Origin: Kitasatospora cheerisanensis KCTC 2395
GTDB lineage: Bacteria; Actinomycetota; Actinomycetes; Streptomycetales; Streptomycetaceae
DNA: 64,000 bases
Assembly (NCBI RefSeq): GCF_000696185.1
Contig: NZ_KK853997.1
Coordinates: 2,294,761-2,358,760 of the forward strand
Direction of reading: 5' to 3'
In this document: positions 15,866-23,481 of the stretch, piece by piece
Layout: each line of letters begins with the position of its first letter
Numbering within the stretch: position 1 is the first letter of the stretch
Program-made: the position numbers and the translations under genes
The notes under the pieces: generated by a model
What the model was told of the DNA's origin: nothing
Databases searched by the model: none
Seen by the model: the letters and a program-made list of their open reading frames with translations, nothing else

Positions 15866-16005
15866 TCCTTCTTCCTCACACCGCCTACCGGGTGAGCTGA
15901 CGGGTTCGGGCCGGAAGAGATGCCCTACGGCGCCTCACCGCCCGCTGTCGCGGCCGACCTGGCGCCGATTCACCCCGGGGGAACGTGGTTCCCCGGCTCC
16001 GTTCG
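15866..16005 (-). ncRNA. ydaO-yuaA (cyclic di-AMP) riboswitch
   Basis: Reading the reverse strand, the leader carries the conserved blocks of the actinobacterial ydaO element in order: GAGCCGGGGAACCA, then GGGGTGAATCGG, then CGTAGGGC, then GACC-like and CCCGAACCCGTCAGCT, then CACCCGGTAGGCGG, ending about 10 bases before the ribosome-binding site of the NlpC/P60 gene at 15855. Block order, spacing and position before a cell-wall hydrolase all match known streptomycete examples. Boundaries are approximate. Confidence 0.9.
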
Positions 16006-16134
16006 ACAGCACCCCCGCAGGGGATCCCCGTCGGCGGATCACGTTCTGACGATCCGCCCGCTGCGTCACGGACTCGGCGGCGACCTCCGCCGTCGCCCCC
16101 CATGGGCGATCGACTCTGCGGCGGTCGAAGCACG

Positions 16135-20719: not shown

Positions 20720-22096
20720 TCAGCGCCCCCGGCCCCGGTCGATCTGCTCGGTGGCGACGCAGCGCCCGCCCTCGTTGCGGTAGCTCCACCGCGCGCCGTC
20801 GGTGACCAGGTCCCGAACCGCCGTCAGGAACCGGTCCAGGTGCTCGACGGGGGTGCCGGCGCCGAAGCTGACCCGGATCGCGTTCAGGCTGCGCTCCCCC
20901 GGCAGCGAGGGCTCGGGGGCGCCGCACTCGCTCGGCGCGGCGTCCTCGCCGCCGAGCAGGGTCCGCACCAGCGGGTGCGCGCAGAACAGCCCGTCCCGGA
21001 CGCCGATGCCGTACTCGGCGGACAGCGCGGCCGAGAAGTGCGAGCTGTTCCAGCCGCGCACCACGAAGGACACCACGCCGACCCGGTCGGCGTGCTCGCC
21101 GAACAGGCTGAGCACCCGCACCTCGGGGATCGCGGCCAGACCCTCCGTCAGCTTCGCCACCAGCGCCCGCTCCCGGGCCTCCAGCTCGTCGAAGCCGGCC
21201 TCGGTCAGCGCCCGGCAGGCCGAGGCGATCGCGTACGCGCCGATCACGTTCGGCGAGCCGGCCTCGTGCCGGGCCGGACCGGTGTGCCACTCCACCGCCA
21301 CCGAGCCGTCCAGTTCGCGCGCCACGGTCCGGCTCGCCCCGCCGCCGGCCAGGTACGGGTCGGCCGCGTCCAGCCAGTCCGACCGGCCCGCCAGCACGCC
21401 GGCGCCGAACGGCGCGTACAGCTTGTGGCCGGAGAACGCGATCCAGTCGACGTCCAACTCCCGCACCGAGACCCGGTGGTGGGGCGCCAGCTGGGCCGCG
21501 TCCAGCACCACCCGGGCGCCGTACCGGTGCGCGACCGCGGTCAGTTCGCGGACCGGCCACAGCTCGCCGGTGACGTTCGACGCGCCGGTGACGCAGAACA
21601 GCTTCGGCCCGTCGGCCGCGCCGAGCAGCGCCTCCTCCAGCGCGGCCACCGCCTCGGTGTGCGAACGCGGGGCCCGCAGGTAACGCACCGTCAGGCCCTC
21701 GCGGCGCCAGGGCAGCAGCGACGCGTGGTGCTCGGTCTCGAACGCGAACACCTCGGTCCCGGCCGGCACCGCCCCGGCCAGCAGGTTCAGCGAGTCGGTG
21801 GTCGCCCGGGTGAACACCACCTGGTCGCCGTCCCGCAGGTCCAGGAACTCGGCGACGGTCCGCCGGCTCTGCTCGAACAGGTCGGTCGACAGCTGCGACA
21901 GGTACCCGGCGCCCCGGTGCACGGACCCGTAGTACGGCGCGTACGCCGCCACGTCCTCCCACACCCGGGCCAGCGCCGGCGCGCTCGCCGCGTAGTCCAG
22001 CGCCGCGTAGCCGACCTTCTCCCCCGACGCCAGCGGAACCTCGACGTCCTGGCCCAGCACGGCCAGCGGCTCACAGATTTCGGTGGTCACGGACAT
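20720..22096 (-). CDS. SufS-like class V aminotransferase / cysteine desulfurase (SAM-IV riboswitch-controlled)
   Basis: 458-residue PLP enzyme. LDYAASAP and FETEHHASLLPW are typical of the group; VTGASNVTGELWP and VLDAAQLAPH bind the cofactor, and the PLP lysine is in FSGHKLYAPFGAG near residue 225. VRDGLFCAHPL near 375 aligns with the SufS active-site loop (RTGHHCAQP), so the cysteine needed for desulfurase or selenocysteine lyase chemistry is present. ATG at 22096 with GGAGGAG upstream. A SAM-IV riboswitch in the leader ties it to sulfur-amino-acid metabolism. Confidence 0.9.
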   Translation of the reverse strand: MSVTTEICEPLAVLGQDVEVPLASGEKVGYAALDYAASAPALARVWEDVAAYAPYYGSVHRGAGYLSQLSTDLFEQSRRTVAEFLDLRDGDQVVFTRATTDSLNLLAGAVPAGTEVFAFETEHHASLLPWRREGLTVRYLRAPRSHTEAVAALEEALLGAADGPKLFCVTGASNVTGELWPVRELTAVAHRYGARVVLDAAQLAPHHRVSVRELDVDWIAFSGHKLYAPFGAGVLAGRSDWLDAADPYLAGGGASRTVARELDGSVAVEWHTGPARHEAGSPNVIGAYAIASACRALTEAGFDELEARERALVAKLTEGLAAIPEVRVLSLFGEHADRVGVVSFVVRGWNSSHFSAALSAEYGIGVRDGLFCAHPLVRTLLGGEDAAPSECGAPEPSLPGERSLNAIRVSFGAGTPVEHLDRFLTAVRDLVTDGARWSYRNEGGRCVATEQIDRGRGR

Positions 22097-22144
22097 GGGT
22101 GCACTCCTCCACGGGACAAGGACCCCGGGGGTGCAAACGACCGG

Positions 22145-22263
22145 AAGTCCGCGCTTGCCGCGCGGACGGATCGCCACGCAGCCCGGTCCTCACCCAGGGC
22201 ACCCCGCCACGGACGGAGGGTTGCCGGACAGCAAGCTGGGGCTTGTCGCTGCCACTCATGACC
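22145..22263 (-). ncRNA. SAM-IV riboswitch
   Basis: Reverse-strand blocks match the actinobacterial SAM-IV aptamer in order: GGTCATGAGTGGCAGCGACA, AAGCCCCAGCTTGCTG, CCGGCAACCCTCC (SAM-I/IV core), GGCGGGGTGCCCTGGGTGA, GACCGGG, and finally GCGCGGCAAGCGCGG, the extra 3' pseudoknot stem that distinguishes SAM-IV from SAM-I. It ends about 35 bases before the ribosome-binding site of the SufS-like gene. SAM binding would lower expression when sulfur supply is ample. Confidence 0.93.
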
Positions 22264-22360: not shown

Positions 22361-22404
22361 AAGGTCCGCCCGGCGGGAGCAACTCCCCTCGCCGGGCGGA
22401 CCTT
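22361..22404 (-). terminator. Perfect hairpin terminator of trpD
   Basis: AAGGTCCGCCCGGCG (22361-22375) pairs over 15 bases with CGCCGGGCGGACCTT (22390-22404), just after the trpD stop at 22411. Confidence 0.85.
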
Positions 22405-22410
22405 TGACGC

Positions 22411-23481
22411 TCACTGGGTCGCTTCGGCCCACCGCTTCAGCAGCTCCCCCGCCGCCCCGGAGTCGATCGCCGCCGCCGTCCGCGCCATCCCCGCCGCGAG
22501 CTGCTCGCCGAGCGGCGCGTCCGTCAGCTCCAGCGCGACCAGCGCGGCGGCGCTGTTGAGCAGCACCGCGTCCCGCACCGGCCCGCGCTCGCCGTTCAGG
22601 ACGCGCCGCGCGACGGCCGCGTTGAACTCCGCGTCCGCGCCCCGCAGCGCCTCGATCCCGACCAGCTCGATGCCGACCTCCCGCGGGTCGAACCGGGTCT
22701 CCGTCACCTCGCCGTCCCGGATCACCCAGACGTGGGACGTGGTGGTGATGGTCAGCTCGTCGAGCCCGTCGTCGCCCCGGAAGACCAGCCCCTGCCCGCC
22801 GCGCCGGGCGAGGACGCCGGCGATCAGCCCGGCCAGCCGGGTGTCGAAGCAGCCGACGGCGTGGGCGCCGACCTTGGCCGGGTTGGTGAGCGGGCCGAGG
22901 ATGTTGAACACGGTGGGGACGGCGAGTTCGGCGCGGGCCTGCGCCGTGTACCGCATCGAGGGGTGGAACTTGGCGGCGAAGCAGAAGGTCAGCCCGACCT
23001 CCTCGGCCACCGCCGCGACCCGCTCGGCGGACAGGTCGAGATTGATGCCGAGCCGCCCGAGCACGTCCGAGGAGCCGGACGCCGAGGAGGAGGCCCGGTT
23101 GCCGTGCTTGACCACCTTCGCGCCGGCCGCCGCGGCGGCCACCGCCGACATGGTGGAGATGTTGACGGTCTTGGCCCGGTCGCCGCCGGTGCCGACGATG
23201 TCGACGGCCGGCCCGGGGATCTCCAGCGGCACGGCGTGCGCGTACATCGTCTCGACCAGGCCGGCGATCTCCTCGACCGTCTCGCCCTTGCCGCGCAGCG
23301 CGATCAGGAAGCCGGCCACCTGCACGGGGCTGGCCTCGCCGCTCATGATCCGGTCCATCGCCCAGGCGGTGTCCGCCTGGGCGAGGTCCTCGCCGCGGAG
23401 CAGGGCGCTCAGGACGTCGGGCCAGGTGCGGACCACCTGCGCGGGGTCGCTACCGCCGTTCGCAGAGTGCACGTTCACCAT
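22411..23481 (-). CDS. trpD: Anthranilate phosphoribosyltransferase
   Basis: 356-residue enzyme for the second step of tryptophan synthesis, joining anthranilate and PRPP. The PRPP site is [18 protein letters not shown] near residue 95, [17 protein letters not shown] follows at about 122, and NILGPLTNP near 187 and GDDGLDEL near 240 are family blocks. The ATG at 23481 has GGAG six bases away. It stands alone, not in a trp operon, as is common in streptomycetes; regulation by attenuation is not visible in the 147-base upstream gap. Confidence 0.95.

Follow-up and report, generated by a model that had tools for sequence, protein, structure and literature searches.

The closest described systems are two Streptomyces loci. 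The S. lividans TK24 reannotation places a SAM-IV riboswitch before SLIV_26975, labelled "Cysteine desulfurase (Thiamine metabolism)", in a table that also holds metH and metK RNAs (PMC8079986). In S. clavuligerus, SAM-IV is described before CRV15_21540, a class-V PLP gene given as a cysteine desulfurase, with premature transcript ends in the leader from which transcription attenuation was suggested (PMC8269248). The pairing of switch and gene is therefore known, and the locus described here is its Kitasatospora member. In Mycobacterium avium, SAM-IV has been reported before the O-acetylhomoserine sulfhydrylase gene (MetY, MAV_4315; PMC3774663); this system shares its switch class and proposed regulon with our locus but controls MetY rather than the PLP enzyme. 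A survey published in 2005 described no conserved RNA structure upstream of actinobacterial methionine operons (PMC1262725), and a C. glutamicum table places SAM-IV at cg1478 (PMC3890552); a further paper merely cites SAM-IV (PMC6746716). Our additions are a constant link between switch and enzyme, standing beside MetX and MetY, and a change of leader between genera.

We analyzed a stretch of 64,000 nucleotides from Kitasatospora cheerisanensis KCTC 2395, hereafter the window. On its minus strand, a trpD-type gene (22411-23481) is followed by the SAM-IV aptamer (22146-22263) and, 49 bases from aptamer to start codon, by the PLP gene (20720-22096). Like the published leaders of SLIV_26975 and CRV15_21540, the window leader carries SAM-IV before such a gene; unlike most Streptomyces loci examined, it lacks a reading frame of six codons between aptamer and gene. 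The features are as follows.

22146-22263, minus: SAM-IV riboswitch aptamer (RF00634, 102.2 bits, model positions 1-116)
22209-22214, minus: 5' strand of pseudoknot PK-2 in the P3 loop (GUCCGU), covarying with the 3' tail
22157-22182, minus: P5 hairpin, lying between P1 and the tail of PK-2 (located from the list of pairs)
22147-22152, minus: 3' strand of PK-2, the proposed switching strand (pair list and covariation)
22120-22134, minus: expression-platform linker, in which GCACCCC can pair with the ribosome-binding site and GGGGUCC with the PK-2 tail
22101-22110, minus: Shine-Dalgarno region GGAGGAGUGC, paired in the predicted linker fold
20720-22096, minus: class-V PLP enzyme, 458 aa, SufS-like, with K225 (SGHK) and C372 (FCAHP) (profile, alignments and structure)

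A sequence-only reading of this DNA had proposed a SAM-IV riboswitch at 22145-22263, with no strand given. The covariance-model search (cmscan) of the window agreed, returning a full-length match to RF00634 on the minus strand at 22146-22263 (E 1.2e-17; 102.2 bits against a gathering score of 38). The reading was also correct that all SAM-IV blocks are present, as model positions 1-116 are complete and covariation backs both pseudoknots and P5. The window RNA has P1, P2, P3, P5, PK-1 and PK-2 in common with RF00634 and with the cryo-EM structure (PMC6890682); we saw no difference within the aptamer, and only the expression platform is clade-specific. The RNA would be expected to bind SAM. A search of the whole genome (8.17 Mb) found no second SAM-IV, and at least one is present in 70/70 genus genomes searched, the window's genome included.

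To count covariation, we aligned 51 SAM-IV sequences (50 distinct) drawn from the window, from other loci inside and outside the genus and from additional copies, with both pseudoknots written into the structure. Among the 50 distinct sequences, 94.4% of cells were paired compared with 84.3% after shuffling, and 25 of 42 pairs had changed on both sides compared with 18.3 in shuffles; 0 of 500 shuffles reached the real value in either case, a count that is not a probability because the alignment rows are related. Sliding the partners by 1-3 columns lowered pairing to 30-44%. Changes on both sides were seen in 5/6 pairs of PK-2 (92.7% of cells paired), 2/5 pairs of PK-1 (99.6%) and 10/10 pairs of P5 (85.1%), and the window thus has the two pseudoknots, with P5 before the PK-2 tail, that mark the class. 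The sequence-only reading had pointed to a 3' pseudoknot stem, GCGCGGCAAGCGCGG, absent from SAM-I. It had the right region, that of PK-2 and P5, but GCGCGGCAAGCGCGG does not form a single stem: the 3' arm of P5 makes up its first part, and the 3' strand of PK-2, whose partner is the P3 loop at 22209-22214, its last. PK-2 joined to P5 is what is new in SAM-IV relative to SAM-I, according to the cryo-EM report (PMC6890682).

The aptamer precedes a gene for a PLP enzyme of SufS fold with the SufS-type cysteine loop, as had been claimed. The loop, RDGLFCAHP, is present, and its cysteine C372 is kept in 132/132 distinct sequences, the window's own among them. H123 and K225 are equally invariant, K225 and C372 corresponding to the PLP lysine and catalytic cysteine of SufS. 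The predicted structure (mean pLDDT 88.7) best matches M. tuberculosis SufS (9ddd, 8odq; TM 0.84-0.85 on target length, 33% identity). The best-ranked NCBIfam model is likewise SufS (TIGR01979), at 258.6 bits against a subfamily cut-off of 475.1, and a separate gene of the same genome scores 531.5 bits to that model even in a partial match of 350 residues; the enzyme is therefore SufS-like, as had been read, and not SufS. Four relatives also score below 475.1. The enzyme falls under the cut-off of all 19 NCBIfam models that it matched. Compared with SufS, it shares the fold, the PLP lysine and the catalytic-type cysteine, but it has CAHP where two aligned SufS read CTQP and CALP, its cysteine is followed by a low-confidence loop of 18 residues (385-402), and no suf neighbours were seen: in the window, the neighbours are the trpD-type gene, a gene with an AsnC-type domain and a rhomboid gene. 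Two further cysteines, C391 in the low-confidence loop and C446 near the C-terminus, are invariant in 113 closer relatives and absent in 19 distant ones. The closest named relative by this protein is from Kitasatospora sp. CB01950 (97% identity). As residues and fold agree, the enzyme likely desulfurates cysteine, and SAM level may accordingly be coupled to cysteine desulfuration through the switch.

The PLP gene adjoins the aptamer in 29 of the best 30 genus loci, the exception (L002) being a second copy in its genome, and SAM-IV lies upstream of the gene in 14 of 16 loci of relatives in a second set (all but L075 and L077). Across 298 genomes of the phylum, an orthologue (E 1e-60 or better) was found in 36, including 17/17 genomes of the window's family. 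We then searched 39 chosen genomes, 23 of the 36 orthologue carriers (only 4 of the 16 g2 genomes among them) and 16 non-carriers of the same class, assigning a SAM-IV to a gene on the right strand within 600 bases. There were 49 SAM-IV in these genomes, of which 18 stand before the PLP orthologue, 16 before MetY, 4 before MetX and 11 before others; the last group is unassigned, and three of its members (in G113, G247 and G077) sit 523-767 bases upstream of MetY-family relatives that score below the cut-off. At least one SAM-IV occurs in 18/23 carriers, in each of which the orthologue itself is preceded by one. The remaining 5 carriers have none genome-wide, and an Rfam scan of their five loci brought no family to its gathering score. 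In the genus loci, in the relatives' loci and across the 39 genomes, SAM-IV was thus found in leaders of genes for sulfur or methionine metabolism.

Since SAM-IV stands before MetX, MetY and the PLP gene, the enzyme is placed with homocysteine formation. This upholds the link of switch and enzyme to sulfur metabolism that the sequence-only reading had drawn; its further suggestion, that the switch tells what the enzyme is for, does not follow from the window alone and gains its force from the 39-genome comparison. The most economical reading is that the enzyme would mobilise the sulfur from which homocysteine is made, regardless of the homocysteine synthase involved. So far the enzyme is named only generically. 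Since it shares the SAM-IV set with MetX and MetY and its own switch is constant, the feeding of sulfur into homocysteine is the first role to test. We found no conserved sulfur-gene neighbour, the commonest neighbour family occurring in 5 of 21 sources, in a survey where gene calling missed the orthologue in L121 and L136 and where L118 ends before it. MetY exceeds its cut-off in 33/40 genomes, so correlation with MetX/MetY does not discriminate, and we dropped this co-occurrence as functional evidence; MetY also exceeds its cut-off in 15/16 chosen genomes lacking the orthologue, so the MetX/MetY route does not require the PLP gene. The window genome's own MetX/MetY pair has neither SAM-IV nor SAM-I in a genome-wide search for these two classes.

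That genome's one SAM-I riboswitch precedes a threonine-synthase-type gene, behind which lies the gene for a small protein of sulfur-carrier type with GGC at its end; we take the two to be MetM and MetO. MetM and MetO are reported from Streptomyces albulus, with a SAM riboswitch upstream of MetM (PMC12172450). Our first idea, that the PLP enzyme is the dedicated sulfur donor for the carrier MetO and the homocysteine synthase MetM, draws on the SAM-IV and SAM-I found in this genome standing before the PLP gene and metM/metO, on the presence of both the PLP gene and MetM in 17/17 phylum-sample genomes of the window's family, and on G340, where a MetM-like gene and the orthologue lie 16 kb apart. 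It is nonetheless improbable. In the phylum sample, taken as the same 298 genomes in both searches since the handles shown agree, a MetM-like gene occurs in 111 genomes and together with the orthologue in 22/36 carriers; it is missing at the threshold used in the other 14. No MetO/CysO-like protein was found at E 0.001 in 8 of 24 carriers searched, and two genomes (G229, G235) have MetM and no orthologue. With these absences, the dedicated role is not supported as a general function, and the co-occurrence searches left the idea unsupported. In all 14 carriers lacking MetM, MetY exceeds its cut-off and there is a MetX-like match of at least 380 bits, which we read as MetX because the cut-off of the MetX model was reached by no genome and no control. 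A GroEL-type gene was seen by eye between the MetM-like gene and the orthologue of G340 (G340:C3:930524-949559).

A broader assignment, in which the enzyme is a cysteine desulfurase serving thiamine, tRNA or Fe-S thiolation in general, would fit the SufS fold, the active-site residues and the "Thiamine metabolism" label of the S. lividans table; we give it a small chance, as another gene of the genome passes the curated SufS cut-off, the SAM-IV placement points to methionine, and the TPP switches in the excerpted table stand at other genes (PMC8079986). It is also unlikely, if a little less so, that the enzyme applies the same chemistry to another substrate, such as selenocysteine, cysteine sulfinate or a homocysteine-type thiol, serving to recycle sulfur at low SAM levels. 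The scores below cut-off for all 19 models and the pattern of C391 and C446 would suit such a divergence, but the active-site residues are, as far as the alignments show, those of cysteine desulfurases.

We rate it somewhat better than an even chance that the whole explanation is a SAM-IV OFF switch for a stand-alone SufS-fold enzyme, distinct from the housekeeping SufS, that feeds the homocysteine route. When SAM is bound, PK-2 would be held together by the P3 loop and the 3' tail; the linker could then fold back over the ribosome-binding site and mask it, so that translation stops. With little SAM, GGGGUCC of the linker would take GGAC of the PK-2 tail, opening the aptamer and freeing the ribosome-binding site. 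The enzyme would then take sulfur from cysteine through C372 as the persulfide cysteine, and the sulfur would pass to the homocysteine-forming route of the cell, be it MetX/MetY, MetM/MetO or both, as both are encoded in this genome.

In the predicted fold of the window, GCACCCC (22128-22134) lies opposite GGAGGAGUGC (22101-22110), and GGGGUCC (22120-22126) is complementary to the PK-2 tail GGAC. Predicted folds pair at least three of the four bases of GGAG of the ribosome-binding site in 50 of 51 distinct genus-type leaders (64 passed the pattern used, and leaders failing it were dropped). The linker motif GG(G)GUCC, or its variant GGGAUCC, complements the tail (GGAC, GGAU or GGGC) in 102 of 114 distinct leaders, with both sides changed in 5 of the 102, and is missing in the other 12; the mean best pairing between linker and tail is 7.01 of 8, compared with 6.01 (sd 0.06) for shuffled linkers. 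PK-2 and the helix between linker and tail are mutually exclusive, which gives a simple two-state model. Energy-based folding speaks against it: the lowest-energy structure predicted for the 186-base leader recovers the aptamer only in part and does not outscore shuffled sequences (z -0.91), the 63-base linker fold is only mildly better (z -1.94), and RNAalifold on the 51 leaders returned the tail/linker helix and did not recover the masking hairpin. That the window's switch works instead by transcription termination, as the premature transcript ends in S. clavuligerus might suggest (PMC8269248), is possible but doubtful, given only 49 bases between aptamer and start, a ribosome-binding site inside the predicted hairpin, and a different organization of the sister-genus leaders.

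This sister genus of the same family (g2) is taken as Streptomyces; some Kitasatospora-type loci bear other genus names. A short reading frame lies 3' of the aptamer in 16/16 g2 loci (L059-L074): here and in Streptomyces loci among L176-L215, a frame of six codons, mostly VSKRMR with stop TAG, stands between SAM-IV and the PLP gene. We searched for the pattern, with one mismatch allowed, in the 16 g2 genomes and the window's genome. It occurs exactly once in 15/16 g2 genomes (the copy in G328 is more divergent), never reversed, and not in the window's genome. Of 80 named loci, 78 have an aptamer that could be read; 36 of these carry the strict form and all are named Streptomyces; a relaxed form adds 6 loci of Streptacidiphilus, in which residue 2 is encoded by other codons, including a different serine codon family. 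The 36 loci lacking the frame are mostly of Kitasatospora type, plus L157 and L164 of Streptacidiphilus and L213 of Streptomyces. Exact matches recur among the named loci for 0/16 g2 loci and 12/30 genus loci. In the strict form, codon 4 is CGA and the stop TAG in 36/36, while in the PLP gene itself CGA makes up 1.1% of arginine codons and TAG 2 of 38 stops. The synonymous and conservative changes suggest that the frame is translated. The stretch after it is C-rich (C 0.42, G 0.25), figures that have no control and make action of Rho there only a suggestion.

We found no report of a six-codon reading frame between SAM-IV and a gene in the literature searched. Interplay of riboswitch and upstream frame is known from the B12 riboswitches of M. 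tuberculosis, which have translated uORFs (PMC11260477); the likeness lies in a riboswitch with a short upstream frame, but the ligand class differs, and on the SAM-IV side the putative frame belongs to Streptomyces relatives and not to the window. About as probable as its opposite, in our view, is that the output device of SAM-IV changed between sister genera. Kitasatospora, the window included, would mask the ribosome-binding site directly; Streptomyces and part of Streptacidiphilus would act via the frame x-[S/N/Q]-[K/Q]-R-M-R-UAG with its rare CGA arginine codon, translation deciding whether transcription continues; and in every leader that retains the linker motif, the PK-2 tail would be the strand that switches. 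The comparison of leaders offers a natural experiment on how a single aptamer may be coupled to two types of output.

Additional SAM-IV copies were seen at other genes. Some precede a large regulator (L050-L056, where the aptamer lies at locus position 2001 or 5001), with AAA_16 domains in L050 and L054 and a LuxR-type GerE domain in L054, the rest being assigned by likeness of their first residues; we found no report of a SAM-IV/LuxR pairing in Streptomyces in the literature searched. Others precede luciferase-like monooxygenases (the minus-strand copies of L041, L044 and L048; two L041 proteins tested) or an ABC permease (L042, L044, L045, L046 and L048; L042 and L048 tested), and the two kinds are divergent in L044 and L048. 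These loci are possibly a SAM-controlled sulfur-scavenging cluster. In L078, a SAM-I (1065-1154, minus) is divergent from the SAM-IV and PLP gene and stands before a frame that by eye resembles 2-oxoglutarate oxygenases. The window also holds a c-di-AMP (ydaO/yuaA) riboswitch at 15866-16046 on the minus strand (63.5 bits; gathering score 38). Finally, a strong inverted repeat seen by eye at about 22361-22405, between the trpD-type gene and the aptamer, is probably the terminator of the trpD-type gene.
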